Origin: Symbiodinium sp. CCMP2592
Taxonomy: Eukaryota; Sar; Dinophyceae; Suessiales; Symbiodiniaceae
Reading direction: 5' to 3'
NCBI GenBank assembly: GCA_905221615.1
Contig: CAJNDT010001213.1
Location: 951,001 to 1,015,000 of the forward strand
DNA length: 64,000 bases
The translations under genes and the position numbers were made by a program. This document shows positions 3,640 to 59,565 of the stretch, in pieces (within the stretch, counting starts at the first letter, position 1; each line of letters begins with the position of its first letter). The notes beneath the pieces are model-generated. The model made no database searches and was not told the origin of the DNA. It saw only the letters and a list, made by a program, of their open reading frames with translations.

Positions 3640-3845
3640 CTACACCCTGAATCCTAAACCCTAAACCCTTTTCCAAGTCCCCTGATCCTCTAAGTAGACC
3701 CTAAACCCTAAACCCTATAGATCCCTTTAAGGAACCCTCTAGATCCCTTTAAGGAGCCCTTCAAGGAACCCTACTTACTAAGTCCCCTACCCTATAGCTC
3801 CCTTTAAGGAACCCTACTTACTAAGTCCCCTGATCCTCGAAGCAA
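3640..3845. repeat. Stuttered HP-A right arms with TTTAGGG-type repeats and spacer words
   Basis: AAGTCCCCTGATCCTC-like HP-A right ends occur three times (about 3676, 3780 and 3820). Between them lie CCCTAAACCCTAAACCC and ATAGATCCCTTTAAGGAACC words. This is one of the composite structures described in the findings. Confidence 0.65.
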
Positions 3846-3906
3846 CCTGCAGCTCCCTTTAAGGAACCCAAGTATCTATAGATCCTCAAAAGGGACCCTT
3901 ACTAAT

Positions 3907-4035
3907 AGGGCCCCAAAAAAGCACATAAGCAACAATGAGGATAGGGATATCCCATATAAACCCCCTTATAATGAAGCCCAATAAGGTAGGGATACCCCGG
4001 TAAAATGCTTATGCTTATGTGCTTTTTGGGTCCCT
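3907..4035. repeat. HP-O hairpin element, single copy here
   Basis: Arms GGGCCCCAAAAAAGCACATA and TATGTGCTTTTTGGGTCC enclose about 90 bp, including CCTTATAATGAAGC. Confidence 0.65.
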
Positions 4036-4137
4036 AAACTAAGTCCCCTGATCCTCTAAGTAACCTTGGGCATCGGCTCCGTGAGGCTTGCGGCAGCTGC
4101 GCAGCGGCGTGCCTCTCGCAGGTGCCCATGTAATCAC

Positions 4138-4335
4138 AGGGACCCTTAGGGGGGGTAAGGGGGAGGGGGGTTTAGGGTTTAGGGACTATACTTCCTTAAA
4201 CAAGCCTATACTTCCTTAAGCGGGGTTTAGGGTTTAAGGTCTAGGGTTTAGGGTTTAGGGATTATACTTCCTTAAACAGGCCTTACTAATTCCTTATTGT
4301 GGGTATTAAGGCCCCGCTACCCCACTAAGGGTCCT
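4138..4335. repeat. TTTAGGG-type tract within an imperfect inverted repeat
   Basis: GGGTTTAGGG runs at 4166-4262 are interrupted by three near-identical ACTATACTTCCTTAAAC words. AGGGACCCTTAGGGG on the left pairs with CACTAAGGGTCCT on the right. Confidence 0.5.
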
Positions 4336-4401
4336 CATGATGGTAGTATGTAAGCCGACATTCCTGCGATGGCTAAAAGTAAGAAAAGGTTTCTTAACAA
4401 G

Positions 4402-4482
4402 CATACATACATACAAACAAACATACATACATACATATGTGTGCATGTGTATATATAGATATATAGAGAGAGAGAGAGATAT
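4402..4482. repeat. CATA / GA-type microsatellite
   Basis: CATACATACAAACAAACATA followed by TATAGATATA and GAGAGAGA runs. Confidence 0.9.
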
Positions 4483-5026
4483 TTAGATATCAATATAACT
4501 ACAATCTATCGAATAGAACGACATCACATAAACAGATTTTTCTTTATATGGTACAGTTTGGTGATCTGCAAAAGTTGGATTCAACTCAAGGCAAAGCGAG
4601 CGAACAAGTTCGAAGTAACCCAAGGTGCATTGTTACAGAAGCCTGGTACAATCCTATTCTCGGGAACAGTTCTCTTCTGGCAGGCATTCATACGTCGAGC
4701 CCTCGCATCTACGATCTGCAGACTGTGAAGCACCCGATAATGGACTCTAAGCCCACAGAACCTGAGCTTCTTCTCGGACAAGCTTCAACATTCCGAAGGC
4801 AAAACACATTCCTTCTACCTACACTTTCCACAGGGCTACATCGTAAGCCAAACCCTAAAAACTTGCGAGGTTTAGGCTGCAGGGCAAAGGACTACTGTAG
4901 GTCTGTTGCTCAAGGCGTAACGTTTCGGCGTCAAGGTTCGGGTTTGTTCACGCTAACGGTGGCCAGACACGTCTGCGAGTAAAATGCCAACCTCTGCAAT
5001 ACCGTTGACCCCGAACCCAAACCTCC
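4483..5026. other. Stretch without a supported gene
   Basis: Contains a 144-codon plus-strand open frame (4548-4982). It has no recognisable motif and no homologous copy in the window. I see no feature I can support. Confidence 0.4.
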
Positions 5027-5028
5027 TA

Positions 5029-5141
5029 TAGTAGAAGCCAGAAAGTTGGAACATGGCTTTAGGAGGATTAGTGCTAGGATCCCTTATACTTTACCTTAAG
5101 GGCATGGGGACAATGATGTTCCAACTTTCTGGCTTCTACTA
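5029..5141. repeat. HP-G hairpin element, with TA duplication
   Basis: Terminal inverted repeats TAGTAGAAGCCAGAAAGTTG... match perfectly over 25 bp at both ends. TA lies outside both ends (5027-5028, 5142-5143). Confidence 0.88.
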
Positions 5142-5143
5142 TA

Positions 5144-5880
5144 ACCGTAATATAGGTGACTTCATGATTAGAATAAGTTTGGGGGTGTAATATACTGCAA
5201 CTTTGATAAGAACCCAGAAGATAGTATTGGTGATGATTTAAGAAGCCCCAAGCCCTGAACCCTAAACCTTTCCGTGCAGCATCCGAGGCTGTGAGAAAAT
5301 CGAACTCGATCGTCGAAACCGACAAAAATTTTAGACTGCATCATAGGGGCCCGTAAAGGGGGTAGGGGACCATATTTCTTTACATTAGCCTTATTAGGTC
5401 CTTATCATGGGCATTAAGGCCCCCCACCACCCACCCGGCCCCTACCGCCCTAAGTGTCCCTATGACTGTAAGGTTTCGGGTTTGTTCAGGCTGGCACTTA
5501 TGGTCCCGGGCTTCGGACCTGGACCTCAAACAGCAGAACAAGTCTTGGGGGGGGTGGTAAACCCAAAGTAAAACCCCTAATAAACCTTAAACCACACCCT
5601 CCCATACTCCCTAGCCTGCGAGACACGGATGACCCACAGGACCAAGCTTACCTTTGCCGGCAAAAAATATCGCAGGTTTAGGGTTCACGCAAGTTTTTCT
5701 TGGGTTTGTATGTGCCTCATACTGACTTGTAGGGTTTGGGACTCTTGAGAAGGGGTAGGGTGTCGGATGAGGATCAGTTTGTTGGGGGCCAGGGATATTC
5801 GGGCCCCTTCCTTCTTTGGCCCCAAAACCGCATAGCAAACTACAGCTTTAAGAACTTATGACCCTCAACCGAGGTACACA
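5144..5880. other. Non-coding stretch with degenerate repeats
   Basis: Holds an imperfect inverted repeat at about 5344-5466 (ATAGGGGCCCGTAAAGGG against CGCCCTAAGTGTCCCTAT). There are scattered telomere-like words, but no gene. Confidence 0.4.
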
Positions 5881-7818: not shown

Positions 7819-10800
7819 TTACATAGGCCTTTCCGTGACCTCTCGCTGCCCTGGTATGCACTTTGCACACACATCCTTCTGAAGAAACTTCGTAGACCGA
7901 TTCAGAGTGCTGCAGTCTCGTGTAGCGTGAACGCATGTTCCAGAGGGTGTTACAAATACGACCTTGGGCATCTCCTTCAGCATTTCAACCTGCGTTCCCA
8001 CCGAACGAGTTCGGTGTCCTCTCTCATCCCCAGCGATAGGGCCTAAAGGTGGCCCTTGAAGAGTTTGTGCTCGGTAGCGTCGATCATCTTCTTCAACCAA
8101 ATCTTCATAGGTAGGGGGCGGAGGCGGAGGTGGAACCCTTCGCTGTTGCCGCTGTGCCCGTCGTTCCCTCAAGAAATCTTCATCTGCCGCACATGAGCTA
8201 AAAGGGTCTGGAGGTGGCGGAGGTGAATCGCCTCTGCCCATCACTGTCTTTGGGACTGACGAAGAGGAACTTGAGCTCTGCGACAGGATTCCGGAAAGGT
8301 CAACTCCAGTAGCCTCTGCCAACTGAACCATCCTCTCCCTCTCCTGTGCACTCAACTGCATAGGACTCGACCGTAGCAGGGAGTTTAGCTCCCTCATCTC
8401 TTTCTTCGACAGTCTTTGACTTTCTTGCACAGCCCTCAATCGAAGCGCCTTTCCTCGATTGCGCCAGCAAATGCGCCCGCACTCCCAGATCGCAATAAAG
8501 CAGATCCCCAGCATTGCAACCACACCATAAAGTTCCAAAGAGGAATCCACAGCCAAGGCAGTTGGGACTTCGGGGTTGATCACTTCACCACTAGCTTTAG
8601 CTATGTTAAGTAACACAACCAATAGACCCAAACAACAACCCAAGCCCTCCGGATTCGTATGTGGAACTGTGGGTGTTTGAGCTCGCTCTGCTGGCTGCTG
8701 TTCTGCTGGCTGATGCTGTGCTGGCTGCTGTTGTGCTGGCCGCTGTTGTGCTGGCTGCTGTTGTGCTGGCTGCTGACCTGCTAGTGCTCGAACTTGCCGT
8801 AGGCGAACATGGTCTCCTGCTGCAGCAAGTCCCCAGAACAACATCATCTGATTCATTCTTTGAGAAGCTAACAACTTCGTAAGACCGTCTGCCAGTTGTT
8901 GATCACCTGGGCAGTACACGACCTCCACCCATCCTTGCTCAACCTTCTGGCGTAAAGCTCGATGCCTCACCTTCAAATGGCGGGTTTTCCAACTCCCTCC
9001 TTCGGAAGTTGCCAAAGTGATCGCCGCTGCATTGTCAACGTAGATCACCCGCTGGTTCGGTGTCTCGCCCATGTCTGTGAGTAAGGCATCAATCGATTCC
9101 ATTTGTTGACATCCATGGTGGGCCGCCACTAATTCGGTCTCCGCCGAACTTGTAGTCACCAACTGCTGACGCGAACTCCTCCAGGCAATTGGACAGGTAC
9201 CCCAAAAGGTCACAGCTCCCCCATGGCTTCGATCTCCATCCGGAGCATACGAAGAGTCCGTGTAGGTGACCAACGTAGGCGTCCCTCCCGTCCAAAAACG
9301 CAGCCTCCACGAACTCGTATGGTTGAGGTAGGACATGGTTTTCCTACCTATCGCTGCCACCCGCACAGGATCTCTTGTAGTCAAACTCGACATAATACTC
9401 ACCACATAGGCAAGGTCGGGTCTGCAACGTTGCGCCATCCAAGCCAGCTCGCCCGTCAAGGATTGCGCCAGCTTGAGGTCCTCGGGCGTGAAGGTCGGGG
9501 GGTCAAACTCAGGGCTGAGCGTTAAGGTCTCCTTTGTAGCCGGTAGTAGCGATTTGTCCTCCGGCTTCACACCTCGATGCCTAAGCACTTCTTGAAGGTA
9601 ACCTTCTTGATCCAAGGTGTATCCCTCAAACTCATCCACTTCATTACGGGCTTCCCGTATCTCCATTCCAAGAAAACGAATCGGTGAGGTAGAGGAGGTG
9701 TATTGGATGGGGGTGGTTTCCCAAGTCCCCGAAAGCCACTGGTAGATATCATCACAGACGTCCTTGGGCCCTGCAATGAAGAAGTCGTCTACGTATATTA
9801 TAACCAGGCCAACAACAACGCCCTCACTGTTCCGCACCTGCCAAACTTCGGAGTCTGCAACTCCTTGATGGAAGCTCAGTCCTCCCGGAGTGGTTGCCTG
9901 CTTCATGATGCCCGTCCTGTGATTTCCCCACCATCGGGGACTACTTCTAAATCCATAGAGTGCCATATGCACTGACCACACCTCGCCGGGCTGAGCTAGC
10001 CCAGCTCGCACTAACACTGCTGGTGGCCGGAGGGCCAACAGGGTGCCCTTGGGCACCGGCGCCCGTAAAAAGGCGCTCACCACATCGCCTGTGCAGATCG
10101 CCCATACTCTTCTGGCTGCCTGAGCGACCCCCAGACGCACAGCCTCGGCGGCTGCACCACCAGAGTAGTTTTGCTCCGAGTCGTCCTTGGCCTGGAAGTT
10201 TCCACATCCCACTATACGGGCCTTGCGACGATACTTGGTTCCAGGTTTGCTTGGGGGTTTCACCGTATATACGGCCTTCCCCGGTACGACCTGAACCCCA
10301 GGTAGGTTCAGGTAGTCCTTCGCTGCCTGCCCCACCAGCCGCTTGATGGCTCCGATGTCTTCGAGGGTGCTCATCTCGGCCTTGAGGGCCTGAATCCAGC
10401 TCGGTAGGTGCTGGTCAACCTCACGTGGGTGAACTGTATGAACAACGCGTAGTTCATCCTGCAGCGACTCCAGAATCTCCTCGATCCCGCAGGTGTAAAG
10501 GTTGTCTGCCGCAGCCTTTGCGCATCTAACAACATCCTCTTCCACCTCGATCGCGGGGTCCTTTTCGCCGAAGTTATGAACCACATCCCCATGCTCTATC
10601 ACCCATGGTAGGTGCAGCGCTTCATTGTGTTCTTGTACTTCAGCACGCTTGATCATGTACTCCTCGTCCTCCTTATCGGGAATCCGGAAGCCCGCGGTGC
10701 TCAAGAGCTGAACCTCTTCATCCTTAAGCTTCTTCCATCCACCAATAGTATGCGCAGCCAACAAAAGTCTCGTACCATCACTCGGTTGTACTGCACAGTG

Positions 10801-13800
10801 AAGACGATGAGGCTTGACTTTCACGTCTCCTTTTAAGCTATGCACATGGCCCGGGATCTCCCGGCCCTTGTAGTTCCTGGTCTCGTAGCTTCCCAAAAAC
10901 AGATCTCCAGGACATAGCTCCTCCCAAACCGCAGCATCACCGGTCACGTCCAACGGGATCACCATGTTGTAGGTCTTGCGATCGTTGAAGCAATCTCGGT
11001 GCACAGGCATACAAGCATCACGGACAATCGTCACCGAGGAAAACACCTCCTCAGGGAACGCCAAGCTCACCAGCTCACACACCTTCTTCGCGAGATCTTC
11101 CCTTTCCTTTGTAGCGTTGGTGACGCCAATCACCCCTCCATGTTGGTAGGCACCCAGGGTCACGTAAGAACTCTCAGGTTGAAGCTCCTGTGCCTGTAGT
11201 TGGGGACGAGTAACTCCACCAAGGTCATCGCTGTTCTTCAACATCTGCAAGATTTCATTCTTCAGCTTTCCCTTGGCTTCCCGAACCTCCTTCACTGACA
11301 TAGACTGGAGCCTCAAACCATCTGGATCTACCGGAGTTTTTGTGGTCAACCTCCTCCTCGGCCGTGGCTCAACCTTCAACTCCGGCTCCTTGTCGATCGT
11401 GCCCGGGTCCACAAGTTTCGCCCTCACATGCGTAGACACAGTGAAGCGGTTCGTCTCATCCTCAAGGATTGCCGACCCCTGGTTTACATCCCACACCGGT
11501 CCCATGTAGGTTCCCTTAACCCAACGAGGTAGTAGATCAAGTTTTCCGCCTTGGCCATAGTATTTCTTTTTGATAGCCACCTTCGTGCCGTACGCCGGGG
11601 GAACAACAGTGGTCTCCGGTCGAAGACAATCCTCACGTTGTCGGTGCGCAGCCGTCGCCATAGCCGTTGCCCAATGCTGGGGTGGTAATCCGGCGGATCG
11701 TAGTAGAGAACGTGCACGGCCCTTGAGAAAGCGAACAGCCCTCTCAGCGGTTCCATTGGACTGGGGGGATTGGCCCTCCGTCCGGGTAAGAAGTATGTTG
11801 TTGTCCAAGGTCCACTGACGTAGACTCTCGGACCGCAGCTCATGGGCTCTATCCGCATGAATTCGAACAACAGGAAGGTTCTCCATACGTAGCTGTAGTA
11901 CCACTTCTTGGATTGCCTTGAGTACATGCTTCCCGCTCTTCCCCTTCAAGGGCTTGAAGTAGTACAAAAAGTCCGTTTGGACCTCGGCGTTCCCCTCCTC
12001 ATCTTCCGTGGCCTTAGCATCCCTTTCTTGTTCAATCGCGGCCAAATCATCATCATCCCATAGACCATTGGTTCCACCAACCTTCTTCACCGCCGGCTCC
12101 TCAGTGGGGTCGACCTCGGAAGGCTCATACTCCGCCAGCTCGTCTTCATCAAAGACACCGCCCTGCACGCTCAACTCATCATCCGCCACGCCGCCTGAGT
12201 CATCTCCCTCACTGGCGTCCAAACTGGAGAAGTCGTAGTCAAGATCGGCAAGGTCTTCCGGCAGCTCTTCCGCAGGTGGTTCCAAACCGGAGAAACGGGG
12301 CTTCGTATAGGACGCTGCCAGGAAGTACTTGTACCCAGATCCGTGGGCATCCTTGCTGGGCGCCCTCAACGGACCGCCCACATCCACACTCAGCACATAG
12401 CAGCTTTTCTGACGAACACGTCTATGGGGGCGGCCTGTTCCCAACATCATCACACACTGCTCACAATCACGTCTAAACGGTACATGATCTCGTTGAATGT
12501 GAAGCCGCCAGCCCTGTTCCTTAGACAACTTGCGGAATTCGCACTGACCATCAGATTGATGATCTTCCGCTCCATCTCCGATCCCCTTCGCTCTGATGCC
12601 CTCATAGATAGCTCGGCGCAGTCCGGGGCACCATCGTCGAGCGGGAAATTCAGGATCTCGGCCAGGACGTAGATGCTCAGGTCGTGTATCCTCAGATCCG
12701 TGGTGGATCTCCAGTCCCGCATTTTGAAGGAACCTCATCGGCGCCCTCTCGGGGTGTCCAAATACGCCTTGATCTACCTCGCAAGCTGTAACACCAACCT
12801 CGCCCACATGGAACTTCTTAACCATCTCCATGTCCCAAAAGTTCCCTTTTTCAATAGGAGCTCCCAACACGAAGGACGGGTCAGCACCCTCCGAGGCAGT
12901 GTAGCTGACCAAGTACAAAAACAACGTCTTCGCCAACACTTCAGTGTCCTTTGTTAGACGCAAGGCCTGATCGCTCCGGGACCCCTCGAGTTCCATGGTA
13001 TCAAAGCCCTTGGTGGGCGGTGAAGCGACCACTGCCTTTATTCTTGAGTTCATTGCGCCCCACAACAGCGCCTTGTAAAGATCACCTCGAAGATTCCATG
13101 CTGAAGAAAGCATCACGTCCAAGTTGATGATCACTACCTCGCCCCGATGGCTTGATGAGGTAGTGCCCGCCAAGGCCTGCAAAGGGTCGCCCCGTTTCTC
13201 ACCCGCGAACATGTTCAACACCCAGCATCTGGACTTGTACAAGCGCTTCCTCATTCTCCTTGGAAGGGGAAGGTACTTCAGGTAGTCCCAGCACGCCTTG
13301 GGCGAGGTGTCCATAGCAGGCGCTGTTGCAATCCTCACTTCACTTGGTATCTTTGCAAACACTGGCGATGTAAACAGGGCCTGCAGCCCATCAGCCGCGC
13401 ACCCCTCCTCAGCATACTTGGCCAGTAGCACCCGCCAGTCCGTTTGGCGGTCTTCCAACATCCGGATAGCCATCAGCTGGTCTTGCAGCACCTGGGTCTT
13501 CTCCTTGAGCTCGGCAACCTTCTTCATCTCCAACTCCGCAATGATCGCTGCCGCCTGGCCCGCATCGCTTATCTCTGGGCATCCTCCCCTCACCCTCGTC
13601 TTGATACGTCCATGCTTCGGGTGATGGAGGTAGAAGCCGCCCTTAGACCATTTCAGGGTACAGCCCAAACATTCAATCACCTTCCCAAACGGGATAATAG
13701 ACTGAATGTCCTTGCCCTTCTCGGAGTCCACGATGATGCTGCCGCTCGCCGTCTGGTTGAGTAGCCGTTTTTCATCGCCCGCCAGGGTAACGGAAACCTG

Positions 13801-17151: not shown

Positions 17152-17155
17152 AACC
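17143..17155 (-). promoter_or_regulatory. Primer-binding site complementary to a tRNA-Met anticodon arm
   Basis: Element strand GGTTATGAGCGCC starts at the base after the 5' LTR. Its complement GGCGCTCATAACC has the layout of a CAU-anticodon loop (CTCATAA). Priming by a 5' half of initiator tRNA-Met is known for Drosophila copia. The ATG of the polyprotein lies inside this site. Confidence 0.65.
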
Positions 17156-17500
17156 TGTGGAATGTATCTTCCCGATACAGGGCTTCGTCTCCTCGTTCTA
17201 AACAGCGTGGTTAACACAGAAAGACAAGCCGTGGGGCCATGCACAACGGAGCAGGATGCTTTTTCTCCTTCTACAGCGACACAGTGACTAACGCTTCTGT
17301 GCACAGTTAGTCTTAAGCATATTAGCTTATGCGACGCAGTGGCTTCTGCCGATCATGGCATAAGGTTGCCAATGGCTTCTGCCGATCATGGACTCAGAAA
17401 TCACTTCATGAGCCTTCAATCACACATATACAAGGGTTCCCAACTGCACAAGCTCCACTCATGCATTTTACAAAAGCGAGGGGGGCTCGGGACATCAACA
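17156..17500 (-). repeat. 5' LTR (345 bp)
   Basis: Same length and ends as the 3' LTR. It carries two near-copies of GGCTTCTGCCGATCATGG, possibly promoter or R-region elements. The promoter position was not determined. Confidence 0.95.
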
Positions 17501-18430: not shown

Positions 18431-18782
18431 TTGACAGGTCAGGGCTTTCAGTGCTCCGGGCATGGCTTTTCAGAGCTTCCAGGCTTAGAGTCACGGGTCA
18501 AGCAATGCTGTTTGCTACTGATGGTATGCGCTTCAGGTTTGAGTCTTTATGGTTTAGGGTCTGGGGCTTAGTGATTAGGGGTATACCGGCAAACACCCCC
18601 TTAGCTAATATACACTCATGAGGCCTTCAGGATGTTTTGGTGGTTCCGAACAAAGGGTAGGCATAGGTTTTACATCTAGTTTGCAGGTTACTGTTGGGTT
18701 TAGGGTTTTGGGCTTTGCTGCAGGCCTACAGCCTTCAAGGATAATTTGTCGTGCTAGAGTAGGGTTTGCCGGTTTGGTGTAA
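18431..18782. other. Stretch without a supported gene
   Basis: Mixed sequence with isolated TTTAGGG words. Nothing further supported. Confidence 0.4.
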
Positions 18783-18884
18783 TATAGGGGCCTTTCAAAT
18801 TAGAATAGGGTTTTGGGGTATACTATACTATGATCATAATAAGGAACCCCCACAATAGTATAGGCAATTGTTAAAGCCCCTATA
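18783..18884. repeat. HP-E hairpin element
   Basis: TAGGGGCCTTTCAAATTAGA on the left, complementary GCCCCTA on the right, GGAACCCCCA in the right arm. Confidence 0.8.
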
Positions 18885-18946
18885 GTAGTTACCTTACAAA
18901 TAAAAGCACTCACTACACCCATCAAAGGAACCCTAAACCTAAACGA

Positions 18947-20131: not shown

Positions 20132-20250
20132 CTCAGAGGATCATGGGACTTAGTACACAGGGTTATAAGCACCTGAATTGAGTTATAAGTAGATATAACA
20201 AGAGTTGCCTTACTTCTAAGCCCACTTACTAAGTCCCCTAATCCTCTAAG
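20132..20250. repeat. HP-A hairpin element, TA duplication
   Basis: CTCAGAGGATCATGGGACTT to ATCCTCTAAG. TA lies outside both ends. Stuttered HP-A right-end fragments with telomere-like words follow to about 20420. Confidence 0.85.
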
Positions 20251-20439
20251 TAGACCCGAAACCCTAAACCCTTTTAGCACCTACAGATCCCTCAAAGGGA
20301 CTCTTAACTCCCTACTTACCAAGTCTCCTGATCCAAGTAGACACTAAGCCCCACACCTTTATAGTACCTATAGATCCCTTACAGGGGACCTTAACCCCAC
20401 TTGCTAAGTCCCCCGATCCTCTAAGAGACTCTAAGTAGC

Positions 20440-20983: not shown

Positions 20984-21401
20984 GTAAGCTATAGGATTAC
21001 AAACGCCCCTACATTACAGCACCCCAAATAGATCCTATTCCCATAGTAACCCTTCTAGACCCCTTTATAAGGCCCCTTCCATTCTCTACTAACCAAAGGA
21101 AAGTAAAGCTAAAGGCTGAACCTCTGATCTGAGTGCCGCGGTGCGTTGCCCGGCCGCCAGCGCCTTGGTCCTTCGCTCTGGCCGCGTATGACGGAAGCTG
21201 GCTTTGGTAAAACTATTAGGTTCCTTTCAAGGGATCCTTCCAAGGGTTCCATAAGGGACCTTACAATAGGGCTCTATATCAGGGCCTTAATAATTAGAAT
21301 AAGGTTTTGGGTCTAGGGTTTAGGTCTGGCAAGCTGGGCTCTCACAAGATTTTTGTTCAACCGCTATGTGAGGAGCGCAAGGCTTGAGCACCACTTTCTG
21401 T

Positions 21402-22311: not shown

Positions 22312-22925
22312 TCAAAAAGTTTAACTCGAAGTTTTAGAGGCACTGAACCCAGGGTGTGGCAGCAGGCAGTCGACCTTAAAGCGCTTTTGGAGTTTAGGGT
22401 TTAGGGCATACCAAGGGCAAACGGTGCTAAGGGTCCTCATGTAGCTTGGCCTCTACAATTTTCCCTTGGATTGAAACCCCTTAAACCGCTCAGGTGGCTG
22501 AATACACGAAAGCCACGAAAGGCCGTTTTTAAAACACAACGTTTTCGATGGTCGGCCTAAAACCCCGAAGGAAAACTAGGCTCCCGATGTATGACGTCGA
22601 GAAAGCACCGGAAAAGGAACAAAACAAACAAAAGCAATGCAGAGAAAAACTGCATTCCCGATGGACGGAGTACGACTGCAAAGTGCAGCATTCAGGGAAC
22701 CATGTGTCAATCACAACGACGACGAGGTCGACGGCAATGACCTCAACAACCACAACCAACAGCGATAATAATACTGGTTTTGAAACAGCAGCGATGTAAG
22801 GGCCTTAAGCAACAAGAACTGCAATAGGGTCTTGGGGGCTGTCATGATATAACTACAGATAGTAGGCACTATAAGGGGAGAATCTTATTCATAGTTCTGA
22901 CCCTATTTTAACCCGAACGCATATT
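22312..22925. other. Stretch without a supported gene
   Basis: An HP-E-like fragment lies at about 22808-22905 (GGGTCTTGGGGGC). The plus-strand open frame at 22548-22799 is unrecognised. Confidence 0.4.
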
Positions 22926-23040
22926 TTGAGGATTATAGGACTTAGTAAATAAGGTTATAAGTACCGCAGATAGAGTTTTCAGTAGATAAAGCGTTATCCC
23001 ACTTATAACCCTACTTGCTAAGTCTCCTGATCCTCTACGT
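22926..23040. repeat. HP-A hairpin element, ends decayed
   Basis: GAGGATTATAGGACTTAGTA to AGTCTCCTGATCCTC, followed directly by CCCTAAACCCTAAACCC. Confidence 0.75.
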
Positions 23041-23148
23041 AGACCCTAAACCCTAAACCCTTGTAGTACCCTATAAGTCTTTTCAATGGACCCTTAACTC
23101 TTTACCCCCTACTTACTAAGTCCCCTGATCTTCGTCTAAGTAGTCATA

Positions 23149-23268
23149 CTTGGAGGATCATGGGACTTAGTAAGTAGGGTTATGAGTGCCCTAACCAGGG
23201 TTGTAAGTACATATAACTAGAGTTACCTTACTTATATCCCTACTTACTAAGTCCGCTGATCCTTTAAG
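23149..23268. repeat. HP-A hairpin element, TA duplication
   Basis: CTTGGAGGATCATGGGACTT to GATCCTTTAAG. TA at 23147-23148 and 23269-23270. Confidence 0.88.
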
Positions 23269-27368: not shown

Positions 27369-27674
27369 CCCAGAGAGCCCCGAATGCCTCTTAATTAACG
27401 AATATGGCTGAAGGTGGGTAGCGTGATGAGGGAGACCCCTCAAAAGGTACCCCTTCTGAACCCTACTTCCGGCTCTCTTAAAAGGGACCTTTTTGAGAGG
27501 GTCTATATCCCCGAGGGTCCCCCTAATCCTAACTCCCAGAAGGCATAGAGGGTTCCTTAAAAGGTTCCTTAAAGGGATCAAGAAGGGAATTCAGGAATAT
27601 GGCTTAAGTTATATAGGGCTTCATATTATGATTTAAGCCATATTCGTTGATTAAGGGGTATTGGACTCTCTGGG
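27369..27674. repeat. Composite HP-B hairpin with inserted spacer module, TC duplication
   Basis: CCCAGAGAGCCCCGAATGCC to GGGGTATTGGACTCTCTGGG, TC outside both ends. About 180 bp of GGGTTCCTTAAAAGG-type spacer interrupt the left arm, after which the arm restarts (AGGAATATGGCTTAAG). Confidence 0.8.
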
Positions 27675-30478: not shown

Positions 30479-30533
30479 ACCCTATCACCATAAAAGGGGT
30501 CCGACTTGGGGATGCGATGTATGAGGGAGGCCT

Positions 30534-31321: not shown

Positions 31322-31505
31322 CCCAGAGATCCCAATACCCCTTAATTAAGGAGCATGGCTTAAGGCCTAGGGGTTCCTTAAAGGGCTCCTTAAAAAGATC
31401 TATAAAGGTTCTATAAGGGAATTGAGGAATATACCTTAAATTCTAGGGGGCCTAAATATTATGATTCAAAGTAATTCCTCAATTAAGGGGTATTGGGTTC
31501 TCTGG
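31322..31505. repeat. Composite HP-B-type hairpin (GATCCC subtype), TC duplication
   Basis: CCCAGAGATCCCAATACCCC to GGGGTATTGGGTTCTCTGG. TC outside both ends. A CCTAGGGGTTCCTTAAAGGG spacer sits in the left arm, which then restarts. Confidence 0.82.
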
Positions 31506-33433: not shown

Positions 33434-33542
33434 CCCAGAGAGCCCAATAACCCTTAATTAAGGAATATGGCTTAAATTATATAGGTGTTCATATTATAAT
33501 TTAAGCTGTATTCCTTAATTAAGGGGTATTGGGCTCTCTGGG
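33434..33542. repeat. HP-B hairpin element
   Basis: CCCAGAGAGCCCAATAACCC to its complement. Flanking dinucleotides differ (CT, TT). Confidence 0.9.
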
Positions 33543-33950: not shown

Positions 33951-34132
33951 AAGGAATTCACTTTGAGTTACCATAATGAGGAAACCATATTATTTTATGT
34001 AGATAAGGAATCTAGTTTCAGTTACCATATAAGGAAACCATACTATTTACTGTAGATAAGGAATCTAACTCAAGATACCATGAAAAGGAAATCATAGTAT
34101 TTACTATAGATCCTATCATGGTATAAACCTTA
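33951..34132. repeat. Three-copy tandem repeat, about 54-bp unit
   Basis: AAGGAATC....GTTACCATA.AAGGAAACCATA.TATTTA.TGTAGAT repeated at 33951, 34005 and 34058. Confidence 0.85.
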
Positions 34133-34646
34133 AACCCTAAACCCTTAAAGGAACCCTTATAGATCCCTTAGAGGATCTCTTATAGATCCCTACTATGGCA
34201 ACTTAAATTAACTCAAAATGAACCCCTTAACAAGAACCCAGTTTTGGAGTTGTTGTTTGAGGTGGCCTCCTCGGGAGGACTTTTTGCAGGGCAGCCTGGG
34301 GTTGCTTACGGTTTAGGGTTTAGGGTCTAGGGTTTTAGGGTTTGAGGGTTTAGGGTCTAGTGGGGTTCTTACGGTGGTTTAAGAATGCTTTAGGCCAGCT
34401 TCTGCAGTTTTCTTAGGTCTGTGTTGAAAAGTGTTTGAAGCGTTCTGCGGGTTTCTTGTGTAGGCTGTGTAGGCTTTCTGAATCTTGTAATCGGTGTGAA
34501 ACTGTTTCTTAGGGTTGTTCTCAGGTTTCCTTTTGCGTGTACTTCAACTGGTGTGTTCATGCTTTCTTTCGGGTTTGTTTTCGCGCTTCTTGGAGTATAC
34601 TATGTGTGTGTGTGTGTGTGTGCGCGCACGTGTGTTGTTTCTGCAG
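34133..34646. other. Stretch with TTTAGGG tract and (TG)n
   Basis: TTTAGGG-type run at 34313-34362 and (TG)n at 34599-34633. No gene supported. Confidence 0.5.
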
Positions 34647-35758: not shown

Positions 35759-35929
35759 CCCAGAGAACCCAATACCCCTTAATTAAGGAAGTATAGCTTA
35801 CAATCATAATATGAAGCCCTATAATATGAAGCCCTATATATGGTATGCCATATTCCTTCATCCCCTTATAGACCCCCTTATAGATCCCTTTATGGAGCCG
35901 CTTAATTAAGGGGTATTGGGCTCTCTGGG
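35759..35929. repeat. Composite HP-B hairpin, TA duplication
   Basis: CCCAGAGAACCCAATACCCC to GGGGTATTGGGCTCTCTGGG. TA outside both ends. The CCTTATAGATCCCTTTATGG spacer is in the right arm, and ATATGAAGCCCTATA is duplicated at the centre. Confidence 0.85.
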
Positions 35930-36638: not shown

Positions 36639-36806
36639 CCCAGAGACTCCAATATCCCTTCATTCAGGAATAGCTAGGGTTCCTGTAAGGGATCCATAAG
36701 GGATCTGTAGGGTTTAGGGCTCAGGGGCCTCCAATATCCATCATATTAGGGATCCTACTACAACTTACCTTATGTTCCTTAATTGAGGGATATTGGAGTC
36801 TCTGGG
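36639..36806. repeat. Composite HP-C hairpin, TG duplication
   Basis: CCCAGAGACTCCAATATCCC to GGGATATTGGAGTCTCTGGG. TG outside both ends. The left arm is interrupted by a GGGTTCCTGTAAGGGATCC spacer and TTTAGGG, then restarts as CCTCCAATATCC. Confidence 0.88.
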
Positions 36807-39984: not shown

Positions 39985-40052
39985 ACAATTAGAGTAGGAT
40001 GCCCTTTAAAGGGTTCCTTGAAGGGGTCTTTAAGGGATCTACAGTAGGTTTC

Positions 40053-40240
40053 CATCATGTAGGAGCCTTAATAATAGAATAGGGTTTAAGGGTCTATTCG
40101 GGGTTTATTTAAGGTTTATGTCGGGTTTAGGGTATATACAGGAATTAACACAGAGTATTGTATTGGGCTCCCTTTTCGTATAGCTTTAACAAGGAACCCT
40201 AAGGAAGAATATGGGTAATCATGTAAACTTCTACAGTAGC
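40053..40240. repeat. HP-E hairpin with TTTAGGG-type sequence inside
   Basis: TGTAGGAGCCTTAATAATAG on the left; AAACTTCTACA on the right; GGGTTTATTTAAGG and GGGTTTAGGG words in the centre. Confidence 0.65.
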
Positions 40241-41337: not shown

Positions 41338-41515
41338 GGCAAGGACCAGAACACTGCCGAGGGTTTGGTTCTCCGGATTTAGGCCCAGGGCTGTCCTTCA
41401 GGGGCTGGTGTCATGGTGTTTGGGGTACCCGTTTTAAGGAGCCCTAAGCGCCTTCGGCTTCCCTTTAAAGAAATCCAAGCACCCCTGGGCTTGGGAGTTT
41501 TGGGCTGATCTATGT

Positions 41516-41615
41516 GGGAGTTTCCGAATATAGGGACCCTATATAGTACCCTACATAGTAGGATCCTTATTATAAGGACCCCAAAATACGGTACCCCTAA
41601 TTTTCGGAAACTCCC
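41516..41615. repeat. HP-D hairpin element
   Basis: TGGGAGTTTCCGAATATAGG (from 41515) to CGGAAACTCCCA. With the extended ends TGGGAG...CTCCCA, TG lies outside both sides. Confidence 0.88.
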
Positions 41616-42063
41616 ATGTTGATGCAAAATCTAGCTTCGAGGATAAGGACGCACTACGGATTCTACGATTCATCTTCACGGTGGCTTCACGATGTACTTT
41701 TTCCTTGATACTCCTTCGACCATACGTCCTGGCTGCTTTGCTTAAGGCTTTGGTGCAGGGCTGAGGGTTTTTTCGAGCTTTCTTAATTTAACTCATCTCG
41801 TGAGAAGCCCAAAAACATAATTAACCCTGAACCCTACGCCCTTTCAAGGTACAGTAACCAAGGGAGCATGTTCTTCACTACATACCCTTCTAGTGATACC
41901 TCAACTGCAGTTCCCCAACATAACCCAGAAACCCCCAAGCCTCAACACCCGCAGCCCCAACGCTCCAATCCCTTATAAGAAAGAAAAAGCTATCACATGT
42001 GAAAAACCAGATTAGAACTCCATCAACTGGTCCATCAACTTCTAGAACCCCAGACCCCCATTG
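41616..42063. other. Stretch without a supported gene
   Basis: No repeat family member and no convincing frame. Confidence 0.35.
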
Positions 42064-44662: not shown

Positions 44663-44685
44663 CTTGAGACTCGTTTCGGGTAGTG

Positions 44686-44884
44686 TCAGGGCCTTAGTAA
44701 TGGGAATAGGGTTCCTTTAAAGGGTTTCATAAGGGCGGGCTCGTTTAAAGGGTTCCATAAGGGCCAGTATAAGGGTTCTATAAGAAAGGGGCCTTCACCA
44801 TTTGAATGGGGTTTGGGGGCCATTTACTATATTTGAATAAGGAACCCCCAAAATAGCGTTGGCAATTATTTAGGCCCCTATATT
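44686..44884. repeat. Composite HP-E with duplicated left end
   Basis: GGGCCTTAGTAATGGGAATA at 44690 is followed by a GGGTTCCTTTAAAGGG spacer, then the left end restarts at 44776 (GGGGCCTTCACCATTTGAAT) and runs to GGCCCCTATA. Confidence 0.8.
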
Positions 44885-45858: not shown

Positions 45859-46064
45859 CCCAGAGACTCCAATATCCCTTGATTAAAGAGTATACCTAGG
45901 ATTCCTTTGAAGGTATCCTTAAGGGTTCCTTTAAGGGATCTATAGGGTTTAGGGCTTAGGGGACTCCAATATCCCTCAATTAAAGAATATACCTTAAATG
46001 ATAGTAGGATCCCTAATATGATTTAAGGGGTATTCCTCAAATAAGGGGTATTGGAGTCTCTGGG
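45859..46064. repeat. Composite HP-C hairpin
   Basis: CCCAGAGACTCCAATATCCC, then CCTTTGAAGG and GGGATCTATAGGGTTTAGGG spacer, then GACTCCAATATCCC restart, ending GGAGTCTCTGGG. Confidence 0.88.
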
Positions 46065-49105: not shown

Positions 49106-49296
49106 GCTTAGTAGGGAATGGGGGAATGGATCCCTATGGCAGCCCCTACCTGGACCCTAAGGAACCTGCCTTTTTAGGGCTCCCTAATATGATTTCTTTA
49201 TATAAGTCCTTAAAAAGGTAGGTTACTTGGGGTTAAGGTATATAATCCCCAAATAGTCGTCTCCATAATCCATTCCCCCGTTCCCTACTGCTCGGA
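49106..49296. repeat. HP-L hairpin containing a nested HP-K
   Basis: CTTAGTAGGGAATGGGGGAA to CCCCCGTTCCCTACT. An HP-K copy (49147-49241, TACCTGGACCCTAAGGAACC to TTACTTGGGGTTAAGGTA) lies between the arms. Confidence 0.75.
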
Positions 49297-49940: not shown

Positions 49941-50125
49941 CCCAGAGAGCCCGATACCCTTTAATTAAGGAATATGGCTTAAATTCTATAGGGCTTCATA
50001 CTATGATTTAAGCTACCTTCCTTAATTCCCTTGTAGAACCCCTATAGATCCCTTTAAGGAACCCTTCAAAGAACCCCTAGGCCTTAGGCTATATTCCATC
50101 ATTAAGGGGTATTGGGCTCTCTGGG
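49941..50125. repeat. Composite HP-B hairpin, AA duplication
   Basis: CCCAGAGAGCCCGATACCCT to GGGGTATTGGGCTCTCTGGG. AA outside both ends. The right arm is duplicated around an AGATCCCTTTAAGGAACC spacer. Confidence 0.88.
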
Positions 50126-50218: not shown

Positions 50219-50366
50219 CTGGGGGCCCCCTTAGAGGGTTTTATAAGGGTTCCTTTAAAGGGGCTACTGTAGTTTAGGGTTTTCTGGTTTAATGAGGGTT
50301 GAGGGTTTAGGGTCGAGGGTTTAGGGACTTAGGGTTACCACCATCATTGTCGGAGCCTTCTGGTAC

Positions 50367-50553
50367 TGTAGGGGCCTTAATAATTACAATAGGGTTCCCT
50401 TTAAAGGGGTCCTTTAAAGGGCTACTATAAGGGATCTATCAGAGGGTTCTATTATATAAGGGCTTCAATAACTAGAATAGGGTCTTGGGGTTTCTTATAC
50501 CATCATGATAATAAGGATCCCCCAAAAGTATGGGTAGTTGTTTAAGCCCCTAG
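50367..50553. repeat. Composite HP-E with duplicated left end
   Basis: TAGGGGCCTTAATAATTACA, spacer GGGTTCCCTTTAAAGGGG, restart GGGCTTCAATAACTAGAATA, end AAGCCCCTAGA. Confidence 0.8.
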
Positions 50554-50558
50554 AGTAC

Positions 50559-53204: not shown

Positions 53205-53408
53205 TTGGAGTTTCCGAAAATAGGGGGCCCCAAATATAGCACCCTAAAATAGTAGGATCCTTGTTATAAGGACCCCGAAATAAGGTACGTACCCCTAATC
53301 TTCGGAAACTCCCTAAACCCTAAACCCTAAACCCTATAGATCCCTTATCGTACCTTTATAGTAACCCTTTAAAGGAACCCTAAGGTACCCCTAATCTTCG
53401 GACACTGC
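53205..53408. repeat. HP-D hairpin followed by telomere-type/spacer stutter and a second HP-D right end
   Basis: TGGAGTTTCCGAAAATAGGG to TTCGGAAACTCC (53312), then CCCTAAACCCTAAACCC, ATAGATCCCTTATCG and CCCTTTAAAGGAACCC, then AAGGTACCCCTAATCTTCGG again. Confidence 0.82.
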
Positions 53409-53411
53409 CAC

Positions 53412-54551: not shown

Positions 54552-54660
54552 CCCAGAGACTCCAATATCCCTTAATTAAGGAATATTCCATAAATCATAT
54601 TAGGGATCCTATTAAAATTTACGGCATATTCCTTAATTAAAGGCTATTGGAGTCTCTGGG
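54552..54660. repeat. HP-C hairpin element, TT duplication
   Basis: CCCAGAGACTCCAATATCCC to CTATTGGAGTCTCTGGG. TT outside both ends. Confidence 0.92.
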
Positions 54661-55111: not shown

Positions 55112-55837
55112 GGACTCCAATATCCCTTTTTTAAGGAATATACCCAGGGTTCCTTTAAAGGGTTCCAAGAAGGGATCTATTTGGTTTAGGGTTTAGGGAC
55201 TCCAATATCCCAAAATTAAGGAATATTCCTTAGCATATATGCTCTCGGGTCCCGGGCCGCCCCCCCCCCCCCCCTGGTATCCCCCCCCCCCTCCCCCCAA
55301 CCCCCTGCTGCCCTGCTGCTGCACGCCCACCCGCCCTGCCCGCCCCGCCGCCCCCGGCCCGCACCTTGCCTGCCCCTTGACCTTGTGCGCGGATCGGGAG
55401 TGTCGCACTATGCCCTGCCGTGTGCGGAAAGCGGCATCTGACGTGAATTGCAATGATGAATTATGAGGGTTGTATTGCGATGGTGATGGTGGCAGATCTT
55501 CTTTTGAAGGTATCAATGATGAACATGACGACGACAAGGATGATGTTGAGCATGGTATGATCGTCGACTCATGTCCCGGTCTAGAGCAGCACAACATCAT
55601 GAGCAGTATAACCGGTGCCACAACAAGAGGGAAGACAAGGAGTAACACATAAGAACGTCGTGGCAAAAAGAGTACCACCACAGGCCCCACACCACAGGGG
55701 GGGCGGGGGGGAAGGGGGGAGGATACCATGGGGTGGGGGGGGAGGGGGGGTGTGGCAGCCCTGCATCATAAATATAATAGGATCCCTAACATGGTTTAAA
55801 GAATATTCTTTGATTAAGGGATATTGGAGTCTCTGGG
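55112..55837. repeat. HP-C hairpin split by a C/G-rich inverted-repeat insertion
   Basis: GACTCCAATATCCC with spacer and TTTAGGG restart at 55196, then a 520-bp insert, then AATAGGATCCCTAAC and GGGATATTGGAGTCTCTGGG. Confidence 0.72.
55240..55765. repeat. About 520-bp inverted repeat with poly-C / poly-G arms
   Basis: Poly-C runs around CTGGTATCCC (55260-55298) pair with poly-G runs around GGATACCATGGGG (55697-55750). A 178-codon minus frame (55193-55729) crosses it; its C-terminal half is poly-Gly/Pro from the repeat. The inner part is GC-rich and unlike its surroundings. Confidence 0.6.
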
Positions 55838-56178: not shown

Positions 56179-56627
56179 TCATCCCGCTCGTGTCCTTTCC
56201 AGCTGCTCGATCTTGATCGCAGCCTCCTCCACGCAGAAGTTGCACCAAAAGCCTCGCTATGGTAGAGGATCAGGGGACTTAGCCAGTAGGGTTCCCTTAT
56301 GGGTTCCTTGGAGGGTTCTATAAGGGTTCTTTTTAGGGGTTTAGGGTTTAGGGGACTAAGTAAATAGAGGATCAGGGGACTAGTAAGCAGGGTTCCTTTA
56401 AGGGTTCCTTGAAGGGTTCCTTTTAGTGGTTCAGGGTTTAGGGGACTTAGTAAGCAGGGCTGTAGGTAAGGTAACCCTAGATGTATCGACTTAGAACCAC
56501 CAAGATCCTCCAAGCAATAACCGGCACGGTCGCCTGAAGCGAAGGCCACACCGTGCATCCAAGCCGGTAGCTGGGTCTTGTCGTCCACGAGGCAGGCAAC
56601 GAATGCGCCCCACCAGGCATCGACAGC
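56179..56627 (-). CDS. Two-exon gene end; intron is almost wholly a composite hairpin
   Basis: Minus-strand exons are 56627-56522 (AVDAWWGAFVACLVDDKTQL, PAWMHGVAFASGDRA) and 56252-56179 (FWCNFCVEEAAIKIEQLERT, RAG, TGA). Donor GCCG|GTTATT and acceptor ATAGCGAG|GC join in phase to give DRAGFWCNFC. The intron 56253-56521 (269 nt) consists of the HP-A composite at 56261-56514 plus a few bases on each side. A WCxxC pair could bind metal. No family recognised; it lies directly downstream of the 56.7-58.0 kb gene on the same strand and could be part of it. Confidence 0.55.
56261..56514. repeat. Composite HP-A with three left-end iterations
   Basis: AGAGGATCAGGGGACTTAG occurs at about 56264 and 56365, and GGGGACTTAGTAAGCAGGG again at 56441, separated by GGGTTCCTTGAAGGGTTC and GGGGTTTAGGGTTTAGGGG. 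One right arm ends CAAGATCCTCCAAG. Confidence 0.85.
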
Positions 56628-57602: not shown

Positions 57603-57894
57603 CTGTTAGGAATAAAAAAACGGGATGACATCAAGGTATCATGGACAGTCTTATATTTGCCTGTATGGTGCTTTTCATAAAAAGCACTCGGAATCCTAAA
57701 CCCGAAAACCGCAAACCCACCCGTGCACAACCATTAAAGAACCCAGCAAGAATCCTTTACGGCACCTTCGACATAAAACATAAAGATCGAAGACCCTGTA
57801 AAATCTTGATAACCCTATACAACCCCATTTAAAAATGCAAAAACTTGTAAGTACTAAACAACCGTAAAAACCCTCCGTAAGAACCCAGTAAAAC

Positions 57895-58005
57895 GCTGCT
57901 CTAAGCCTTCGGCCACGCGGTCAAAGAGTTCGGCCAAGCGATGCGGAGGCGGAGGTTCAGAGGCCAATGCACCAGGGTTCGAGGTAGCAGAGGATGAGGA
58001 GCAAC
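57895..58005 (-). CDS. Candidate upstream exon of the 56.7-57.6 kb gene
   Basis: Minus strand: hairpin end CTCTGGG, GAG|, then frame CSSSSATSNPGALASEPPPP, HRLAELFDRVAEGLEQ. The phase to the next exon could not be fixed. Ser/Pro-rich then helical. Confidence 0.42.
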
Positions 58006-58008
58006 CTC

Positions 58009-58260
58009 CCCAGAGAGCCCAATACCCCTTAATTTAGGCATATGGCTTAAAATATATAGGGCTTCATATTATGATTTAAGCTATATTTCAGGGTTCCTGT
58101 AAGAACTCTATAATGGCTCCTTTAAGGTATCTATAAGGGTTTTGATGATGGTTCTATAGGGCTCTAAAGGATTAGGAGGCTTAGTAAATAGGGTTGCAGG
58201 TACCTGATTTAGGGTTAAAAGTACACACAACTCTTGTTACCTTACTTGGGGCACCAGGGT
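58009..58260. repeat. Chimeric hairpin: HP-B left part joined through spacer to HP-A
   Basis: CCCAGAGAGCCCAATACCCC to GATTTAAGCTATATTTC, then GGGTTCCTGTAAGAAC/GGTATCTATAAGGG spacer, then AGGATTAGGAGGCTTAGTAA and the HP-A inner part to TTACCTTACTTGG. Confidence 0.8.
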
Positions 58261-58564
58261 TCAACGGGATGAACCTCAGGGGGTCTAGGGTTTAGGGTTT
58301 CTGGGTCTAGGGCTCATGGGCTTGGGGTTTAGGCTTCAGGGTTTAGGGTTTATTGTTTAGACTTTTGGGATTGGGGCATAGCTGGTAGGATTCAAGAGTT
58401 TAGGTTGCGACACAAACCTCTGACTGCGATCATGTCCTCGAGTCATCCCCATATGTGCAAAATTCTTATGTTTGCTGTAGCATCCCAGAGGCACTGCCGG
58501 CGGACTTAAACCTAAACCTTAAACCCCAAAGCCCAAACCCTCACAAGGTGGGAAGTAGAATTTG

Positions 58565-58750
58565 AGAGTTTCCGAACGTAGGGGACCCTAATTGCAGTAC
58601 CCTGAATAGTCGGATCCTTATTATAAGGACCGCAAAATAAGGTACCCCCTAACTTTTCGGAAACTCTAAACCCTAAACCCTTTATAGAACCCTTATAGAT
58701 CCCTTTACAGGAACCCCTATAGATCCCTTTAAAGGAACCCTAAGGTACCC
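58565..58750. repeat. HP-D hairpin followed by stutter module
   Basis: GAGAGTTTCCGAACGTAGGG to TTTTCGGAAACTC, CCCTAAACCC, ATAGATCCCTTTACAGGAAC twice, then AAGGTACCCCCTAACT again. Confidence 0.8.
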
Positions 58751-58758
58751 CCTAACTC

Positions 58759-58852
58759 CATTTCGCCAACGAGGCCTTGCCGTGGGGCTTGAACCTGCGT
58801 CTCCTGGCCGAGCAAGGCGCGAAACGGATCCGCTGCCCGGCTGACCTTTGCA
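58759..58852. CDS. Strongly coding-like island, strand uncertain
   Basis: Plus frame HFANEALPWGLNLRLLAEQG, AKRIRCPADLCKG has high GC at third positions. The minus frame after TTTGCAAAG| (VSRAADPFRALLGQETQVQA, PRQGLVGEMEL) is equally open and fits the strand of its neighbours. It is bounded by HP-D sequence and an HP-C-like hairpin. Confidence 0.35.
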
Positions 58853-58860
58853 AAGGGTGT

Positions 58861-59108
58861 CCCCAAAGAGTCCACTATCCCTTAATTAAGGAATATTCCT
58901 TAAATCTCATTAGGGGTCCTAGCATAATTTAAGGAATAGTCTTTTTAGATCATATTAGGGATCCTACCAGAATTTAAGGAACATTCTTTAGATCCTATCA
59001 GGAATCCTACCATAATTCAAGGAACATTCTGAATATTCTTTAGACCATGTTAGGGATCCTACCATAGTTTTGAGGAAGATTCCTCAATTAACGGATATTG
59101 GAGTCCCC
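58861..59108. repeat. Expanded HP-C-type hairpin with repeated inner segment
   Basis: CCCAAAGAGTCCACTATCCC to GGATATTGGAGTCCC. The inner ATATTAGGGATCCTACCA.AATTTAAGGAA segment is repeated about four times. Confidence 0.8.
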
Positions 59109-59259
59109 GAAACCCTAAACCCTATAGATCCCTTATACATTCCTTAAAGGAACCCTTATAGATGCCTTTAAAGGAAGCCCGTTTCCTCTGTATGACCCAG
59201 AGTTTTGGACTTCAAGTTTCGGGCCTGGGGCTCCCCGTCGAATCGGCCTGGGGTACCGA

Positions 59260-59565
59260 CCCAGAGATCCCAAAACCCCTTACCCAGAGACTCCAACATC
59301 CCTTAATTAAGGAGAATACTTTAAATTATGATAGGATCCCTAATATGGTTTACGGAATATTCATTATTAATTAAGGAATATTGGAGTCTCTGGGTAATGA
59401 AGGAATATACCTTGAGGCCTAAGGGTTCCTGAAAGGGCTCCTTAAAGGGATCTAATGATGGGGGCTCTATAAGAGAATTCAGGAAGGTATATCTTAAACT
59501 ATAGGGGGGCTTCATACTATGATTTATAGTATATTCCTCAATTAAGGGGTATGGGGTTCTTTGGG
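59260..59565. repeat. HP-B-type hairpin holding a spacer module and a nested HP-C, GA duplication
   Basis: CCCAGAGATCCCAAAACCCC to GGGGTATGGGGTTCTTTGGG. GA at 59258-59259 and 59566-59567. Confidence 0.82.
59283..59394. repeat. HP-C hairpin nested in HP-B, TA duplication
   Basis: CCCAGAGACTCCAACATCCC to ATATTGGAGTCTCTGGG. TA outside both ends (59281-59282, 59395-59396). Confidence 0.93.

Follow-up and report, generated by a model that had tools for sequence, protein, structure and literature searches.

Internal parts common to transposable elements whose ends differ have been described from animals, namely in the CMITEs of Acropora corals, where the origin of the shared part was left open, and in Galileo of Drosophila (PMC2872659, PMC3573991). 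Here we analysed a window of 64,000 nucleotides from the dinoflagellate Symbiodinium sp. CCMP2592 (contig CAJNDT010001213.1, positions 951,001 to 1,015,000 of the forward strand, numbered below from the first letter of the window), in which short hairpin elements of several families carry the same ordered internal module inside one arm, after which that arm starts again. All counts and tests refer to this one 64-kb window.

CMITEs are small non-autonomous inverted-repeat elements that occur in tandem arrays and whose families differ less in an internal region than in their inverted repeats (PMC2872659); in these respects the window elements are alike. CMITEs have piggyBac-type tips and TTAA duplications, whereas the window elements make 2-bp duplications and none of 43 elements had a 4-bp duplication. 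The window elements also differ in that their simple forms are palindromes over nearly their full length, the shared part lies inside one arm that is then restarted, and the tandem unit consists of arm plus module. In Galileo and Foldback the inverted repeats contain tandem repeats whose number varies, and Galileo includes chimeric copies as well as copies that pair the repeats of one subfamily with the internal region of another; recombination or repair was proposed as the cause (PMC3573991). According to the same source the inverted repeats of Galileo exceed 1 kb, its duplications are of 7 bp and its transposase places it with the P elements, whereas the elements described here are about 100–300 bp long with arms of about 50 bp and 2-bp duplications, and their module joins families with mostly dissimilar arms. 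They lack the long, internally repetitive inverted repeats of Galileo and Foldback and the 7-bp duplication of Galileo, although arm-plus-module units do repeat in tandem.

Dinoflagellate introners are likewise short, hairpin-forming mobile elements with inverted repeats and many families (PMC9860276, PMC7789003). An introner of Symbiodinium microadriaticum makes 4-bp duplications (PMC9860276), a length found in 0/43 window elements, and those of Amoebophrya have direct repeats of 3–5 nt, compared with 2 bp here (PMC9860276, PMC7789003). Interstitial telomeric sequences resemble the window in having runs of TTTAGGG, the reported dinoflagellate telomere repeat (PMC11453091), inside a chromosome, some of them within the module; they differ in that the ordered words of the module are unlike the telomere repeat (similarity score 7.8 vs 20.0, see below). 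Among the top-ranked matches in the open-access literature we found no dinoflagellate report in which copies or families with different ends have an internal part in common. The window elements stand apart in the position of the shared part inside an arm that restarts, the closest precedents being the coral CMITEs and Drosophila Galileo.

Hairpin families and target duplications

An inverted-repeat search combined with reading of the copies revealed, among the repeats listed, hairpins of about 100–120 bp that are palindromic over nearly their entire length. Five families (A, B, C, D and E) were modelled and a sixth, F, is less clear. When the arm consensuses were compared against shuffles, B and C were found to be related (score 34), A/E and B/E were weakly alike (score 12, reached by 0.3% of shuffles, and score 10, reached by 1.7%), for C/E and D/E 9.3% and 6.7% of shuffles attained the score, and A/B, A/C, A/D, B/D and C/D were at shuffle level (11–76% of shuffles reaching the score). 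Smith-Waterman matching of both strands at a score of at least 16 gave 49 matches for the A arm, 64 for B, 76 for C, 17 and 16 for the right and left D arms and 23 and 6 for the left and right E arms, counts that overlap between B and C and between the two D models; a control of one Markov sequence, searched on one strand, gave none. Type examples of the simple hairpins, and one nested copy, are:

23149..23268, simple A hairpin, tip CTTAGAGGATCA, TA duplication
33434..33542, simple B hairpin, tips CCCAGAGAGCCC, unequal 2-bp flanks
54552..54660, simple C hairpin, tips CCCAGAGACTCC and GGAGTCTCTGGG, TT duplication
41515..41616, simple D hairpin, tip TGGGAGTTTCCG, TG duplication
18782..18885, simple E hairpin, tip CTATAGGGGCC, TA duplication
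59283..59394, simple C hairpin nested in a B arm, TA duplication

Tips of these elements include CCCAGAGA, CTTAGAGG, TGGGAGTTTCC and CTATAGGGG. Tips of 11–12 bases were searched with at most 3 mismatches per tip, and keeping one right tip per left tip and the nearest left tip per right tip gave a set of 43 tip-defined elements, 87–306 bp long, with matching terminal inverted repeats. Equal 2-bp flanks were present in 30 of these 43, compared with a mean of 9.7 when the right flanks were permuted, and none of 2000 permutations reached 30 duplicated elements. Three identical flanking bases, and likewise a 4-bp duplication, were seen in 0/43. TA was the commonest duplication (15 of the 30), followed by TG and TT (3 each), AA, TC and CA (2 each) and AT, AC and AG (1 each). 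Matching terminal inverted repeats and a target duplication of constant length are properties of foldback-type miniature inverted-repeat transposable elements (MITEs), and the window hairpins are non-autonomous foldback, MITE-like transposons with a 2-bp target duplication, most commonly TA.

Evidence of movement is given by one case, the nested C hairpin at 59283-59394, since joining its flanks yields an uninterrupted B arm. An earlier note on this DNA had read the B-type element at 59260 as a restarted arm; what interrupts the arm there is this complete C hairpin with its TA duplication, i.e. a nested transposition, and the restart at that position was rejected. A B module does lie nearby, at 59422-59475.

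Several further hairpins were noted. Palindromes that run the full length of the element, belong to other families and, by eye, seem to have 2-bp duplications lie at 29318-29420 (CT), 43014-43116 (CT), 19852-19960 (GA) and 49147-49240 (TA). The sixth family (33938-34241) contains 54-bp tandem repeats at 33950-34111 and module-like words of its own. A B-type hairpin at 30533-30677 is flanked by two nearly identical direct copies of a sequence of about 29 bp (GAGGAGYGGCATTCCTCATCATTCAATAG), which greatly exceeds the 2-bp duplication in length. The window contained no Rfam match at the gathering threshold and no tRNA in a tRNA search; the tip, spacer and A-arm patterns had no match in a viral contig collection, nor the tip and A-arm patterns in prokaryotic genome contigs.

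A module common to the families

The longer copies in families A to E carry a module of 29–79 bp, in which words delimited by AGGG follow a set order, and beyond it the arm restarts. Its layout is roughly (AGGGTTCCTTTAA)1-3 - AGGGATCTATA - (AGGGTTCTATAA) - (TTTAGGG)n, with words absent in some copies; the run of words is GGGTTCCTTTAA one to three times, GGGATCTATA and sometimes GGGTTCTATAA, and a TTTAGGG tail is usual in A, C, D and F. The earlier note had described the spacer by two words whose literal forms turned out to be rarer than claimed, with GGGTTCCTTTAAAGGG occurring exactly five times and GGGATCTATAAGGG three times. Clusters of spacer-type words are beyond chance, 27 being present in the window compared with 0–4 (mean 1.8) in 10 order-1 Markov sequences. 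For 7/27 clusters on the 3' side and 16/27 on the 5' side there was no A-E arm within 75 bp, and not all 27 belong. The limits of 23 modules (A 7, B 5, C 4, D 2, E 4 and F 1) were set by hand from the word clusters and the arm map, so that likeness among their junctions is partly due to the bounding.

With the tail removed, modules of different families were similar at a mean Smith-Waterman score of 20.0, compared with a mean of 16.6 (sd 0.4, maximum 17.7) in 200 shuffles of word order and with 7.8 between modules and other TTTAGGG-rich segments. The modules were partly chosen by their words, which inflates the similarity itself and leaves the order test unaffected. These scores indicate that the module is one ordered sequence, beyond mere AGGG-rich DNA; the comparison with TTTAGGG-rich segments also distinguishes it from plain interstitial telomere repeat. 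In 17 of the 19 modules with both word types, the first TTCC-type word precedes the first ATCTATA-type word. The internal module is better conserved across families than most of the inverted-repeat arms, although B and C arms are alike and A/E and B/E arms slightly so. TTTAGGG itself occurs 264 times in the window on both strands together, and its tracts are very frequent around the hairpins.

Orientation of the module is nearly always from tip to centre. Relative to the G strand of a cluster, the nearest arm within 75 bp was on the same strand in 11/11 cases on the 5' side and 17/20 on the 3' side. Among the exceptions, 43033 is a word cluster inside another hairpin, and at 50393 and 59424 a same-strand inner arm is visible by eye but falls under or overlaps the threshold. 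For cluster 58092 the left B arm was scored as the 5' arm; the right B arm, which is broken and adjoins the module, has the opposite direction and is below threshold. The note's observation of one spacer in several families was borne out in the form of an ordered module, in near-fixed orientation, common to families with mostly dissimilar arms. As a distinct element with constant ends and its own target duplication the spacer was not seen in the window; its 3' end differs by family.

Composite elements

The elements and fragments that contain the module are, for family C:

36639..36806, + strand, composite C element whose outer tips have a TG duplication, module 36677-36725, restarted piece short or diverged
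45859..46064, + strand, composite C element, module 45899-45960, 2-bp duplication absent, variants common to outer and inner arm
55117..55240, + strand, tipless composite C fragment, module 55147-55197, ends by eye
59107..59179, - strand, module adjoining the inner C arm of element 58862-59105, outer arm not recognised

for family B:

27369..27674, + strand, long B element, TC duplication, module 27550-27587 with other sequence in between
31322..31505, + strand, composite B element, module 31370-31419, TC duplication only if the last G of the right tip is counted as missing
35759..35929, - strand, composite B element, TA duplication, module 35862-35899 in right arm, restarted piece short or diverged
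49941..50125, - strand, composite B element, AA duplication, module 50028-50077 in right arm
59260..59565, + strand, composite B element with nested C inside, GA duplication with hand-set tips, module 59422-59475

for families D and E:

53206..53410, - strand, composite D element, CT duplication with hand-set tips, a tip one base short, module 53311-53380
58563..58760, - strand, composite D element, TT duplication with right tip hand-set, outer arm internally deleted, module 58667-58740
44683..44884, + strand, composite E element, no 2-bp duplication, module 44709-44787
50366..50555, + strand, composite E element, TA duplication with left tip hand-set, module 50392-50459
40001..40062, + strand, module belonging to a partial E composite, with a TTTAGGG tract alongside
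21219..21281, + strand, module leading into an E arm, no outer arm

and for family A, the B-to-A chimera and family F:

3461..3842, - strand, A element, then E arm and module words (about 3590-3650, by eye) and A modules 3699-3771 and 3786-3814, no 2-bp duplication
20132..20435, - strand, A element with two tandem module-plus-arm units, modules 20255-20312 and 20342-20398, TA duplication with outer right tip hand-set
22924..23140, - strand, A element, module 23044-23107, TA duplication with outer right tip hand-set
56263..56460, + strand, A arms with two module-plus-arm units, modules 56289-56352 and 56390-56442
58009..58216, + strand, B element whose right arm breaks into a module leading into an A arm (inter-family chimera)
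34127..34190, - strand, module-like words in family F (hairpin about 33938-34241)

The earlier note had listed fourteen sites at which an arm stutters. Read by eye, eleven showed what it described, an outer arm, a spacer of AGGG words and the same arm again (36639, 45859, 55112, 44686, 50367, 56261, 31322, 35759, 49941, 53205 and 58565), two did so in part and one, at 59260, had been misread. At 27369 the module and the inner B arm (27550-27587) are present, but some 130 bp of other sequence lie between them and the outer arm. At 3640 there is an E-type arm with a module that continues into an A element, the A-type modules being located beyond (3699-3814).

Two inter-family chimeras were found, E arm to A at 3590-3650 and B to A at 58009-58216, which shows that the module is able to join different families. 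Tandem units occur at 20217-20435, where an 87-bp arm-plus-module unit is present in 2.5 copies, and again at 56263-56460 with two consecutive units. The C element at 58862-59105 has a 43-bp loop and arm piece repeated 3.3 times without a module, and the tandem unit need not hold one. A module fragment with TTTAGGG words and an exact GGGTTCCTTTAAAGGG at 50247 lies at 50240-50335, outside any recognised hairpin.

Junctions between arm and module

The junctions fall into a few classes, which were defined after looking. All three type-2 modules of family A (3786, 56289 and 56390) and one of the two D modules restart after GGG, in three of the four E modules a GGG or GGGG of the arm itself is the point of restart, and the left join lies at AGGGTT in 4/7 A and 2/4 E modules. 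Positions after GGG on offer in the arms number 3/38 in A, 5/39 in D and 5/36 in E, with one AGGGTT each in A and E; the B and C arms have none to offer. The four type-1 modules of family A (3699, 20255, 20342 with a shortened tip, and 23044) all restart at the tip together with TA. The earlier explanation by microhomology is weak and stands only in part: the GGG and AGGGTT joins are suggestive of microhomology in some A, D and E copies, and no GGG join is seen in B, C or A type 1.

Inheritance of the composite elements

Outer 2-bp duplications were retained in 11 of the 14 composites that could be scored (those starting at 27369, 31322, 35759, 36639, 49941, 50366, 53206, 58563, 59260, 20132 and 22924) and were lacking in three (45859, 44683 and 3461). 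Nine of the 14 have at least one hand-set tip, and 31322 was counted as duplicated only after a one-base shift of its right tip, the tip search end at 31506 giving none; among composites with both tips from the tip search, 4/5 were duplicated (27369, 35759, 36639, 45859 and 49941 being the five). Unscored were 55112, 56263, 40001, 21219, 34127 and 59107, with one or both tips missing or unidentified, as well as the 58009 chimera and the stray fragment near 50240.

The right junctions mostly agree within each family. They lie at GACTCC in three of four C modules (GCCTCC in the fourth), at AATTnAGG in four of five B modules, at AGTTTCCG in both D modules and at GGGCCTT or a variant in all four E modules; those of A are of two types. 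The telomere-like tail also tracks the family, being present in 12/13 A, C and D modules (counting one degenerate tail, 20342) and in 0/9 B and E modules. The shared right junctions, family-bound tails and kept outer duplications together point to few events followed by descent, and judging from these signatures the composites look as if they were inherited and moved as units, not remade at each locus. The idea that the same event recurs at every copy was not supported, given that right junctions and tail follow family membership, which fits descent.

Similarity of the modules was also compared within and between families. Overall it was 21.5 within and 20.0 between families (per base 0.49 vs 0.45, permutation p = 0.04). 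With one trimming, the within-family scores were 16.8 for A, 25.9 for B, 23.2 for C, 29.0 for D (one pair) and 27.5 for E, and between families they ranged from 17.1 (A-E) to 27.1 (D-E). C-D pairs (26.4) were more alike than C pairs, and B, D and E modules were on average nearest to their own family. The greater likeness within families fits early acquisition by each family and then descent, with no positive sign of repeated exchange.

For 8/22 testable modules no other family arm in the window matched the outer arm better than its own restarted arm did, convincingly (score of at least 16) in A3790, E40005, C45899, D53310, A56391 and D58667 and weakly in B35862 and C59106. Judged by eye, the B module lies on one side of the asymmetric loop in 27550, 31371, 35862 and 59422 and on the other in 50029, and the C module on one side in 45899 and 59106 and on the other in 36677. 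The occurrence of B and C modules on either side of the loop suggests at least two events or an inversion of the loop.

Origin of the composite elements

Template switching during copying or gap repair is a general explanation for internally rearranged transposons. The explanation we tentatively prefer is that a few template switches occurred per family and were followed by transposition of the long forms and by tandem expansion. The long form would probably have arisen only a few times in each family: during tip-inward copying or gap repair of an element, the nascent end would have followed the arm, jumped to another element's module and then gone back to an upstream point of its own arm, which in some families is an AGGG or GGG. 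Afterwards the long forms would have transposed as units from their outer tips, a course that the target duplications and the junctions held in common suggest. The arm-plus-module unit of family A, whose tandem copies are observed, may have multiplied by slippage or unequal exchange. Switching from the tip inward would account for the polarity, for the retention of the outer tips, for the repetition of the arm and for a module found across families.

Several observations weigh against this explanation. B and C arms have 0 positions after GGG before the restart, one of the two D and one of the four E modules have no preceding GGG, and in A type 1 the restart takes in the tip, preceded by TA, so that microhomology is not general. 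In 14/22 modules another arm in the window beats the own inner arm as a match to the outer arm, and for A3700, C36677 and B59422 most other arms do so. B, C, D and E modules resemble those of their own family somewhat more than those of other families on average (20.0), with A heterogeneous (16.8), and neither a donor nor an intermediate was seen in the 64-kb window.

The main rival, which we consider possible though rather doubtful, is that the parents of all families had a subterminal module, perhaps of transposase-binding words, and that the short hairpins are deletion derivatives. The arm copies that flank the module are direct repeats, so one deletion by recombination between them would yield the short form; the module is better conserved across families than most arms, as in the coral CMITEs (PMC2872659); its likeness is greater within than between B, C, D and E; and tandem repeats in the inverted repeats of Galileo have been proposed as secondary transposase-binding sites (PMC3573991). 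An ancestral module does not, however, predict private variants common to outer and inner arm (8/22 unbeaten, six of them convincingly) or a module on either side of the asymmetric loop (B 4 vs 1 and C 2 vs 1, by eye), and it needs a separate reason for a tail in A, C and D but not in B and E. It is unlikely that the G-rich cassette is a transferable part which, by template switching during copying, passes between unrelated hairpin families in one orientation and seeds tandem arm growth, such that the families would evolve as a network.

Capture of flanking sequence, in which a hairpin inserted beside a module or telomere-like tract, a same-family tip beyond the tract served as an end, and element, flank and half-element moved as a composite, would explain why A type-1 modules restart at tip plus TA (4/4), as expected of a whole inserted inner element, and would suit the very frequent TTTAGGG tracts around hairpins. 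This seems quite improbable, given that the tip is missing from the restarts of C, A type 2 and B and its first bases from those of D, and that independent captures would not be expected to give a near-fixed orientation and word order in all families. We consider it very improbable that the modules are scars of telomerase-linked repair, in which telomerase would have added repeats to a GGG end at a break in a hairpin and the product would have been linked to the arm by way of GGG. The TTTAGGG tails do occupy the 3' end of the G strand, most of them following a GGG, and in 3/3 A type-2 modules and 1/2 D modules their join is at GGG, but a tail is present in only 12/22 A-E modules, with none in B and E, and the ordered non-telomeric words common to the families indicate a module that was copied, not synthesised anew. 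Chance resemblance of low-complexity AGGG-rich sequence has almost no probability left and was rejected; although the window is rich in TTTAGGG-like words and the modules were partly chosen by words, the 27 clusters compared with 0–4 in simulations and the tests of word order and orientation speak against it.

If genome-wide data confirm few template switches followed by descent, the dinoflagellate hairpins would hold many datable records of exchange between transposon families, in which the outer target duplication of each record marks the unit of inheritance, and would offer a natural system for testing the influence of arm repetition, interstitial telomere repeats and palindromes on very large genomes.

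Other features of the window

Six open reading frames (ORFs) were scanned against Pfam. A single uninterrupted ORF of 3161 aa (7819-17304, - strand) contains a Copia-type reverse transcriptase domain (RVT_2, Pfam) and tandem 33/66-bp repeats near its N-terminal part; it is possibly an intact retroelement polyprotein. The ORF at 37465-38931 (- strand, 488 aa) encodes an RCC1-repeat protein (Pfam) and is built of 123-bp (369-bp) tandem units. Among the 120 of its 3096 matches that were listed, with identities of 43–71%, most of the named ones are Symbiodinium proteins and a few are bacterial. By its content the window is taken as dinoflagellate nuclear DNA, probably of Symbiodiniaceae. A large minisatellite region at 60702-61912 consists of 9/18-bp CGCCCACAC-type units with longer periods of 135–231 bp.

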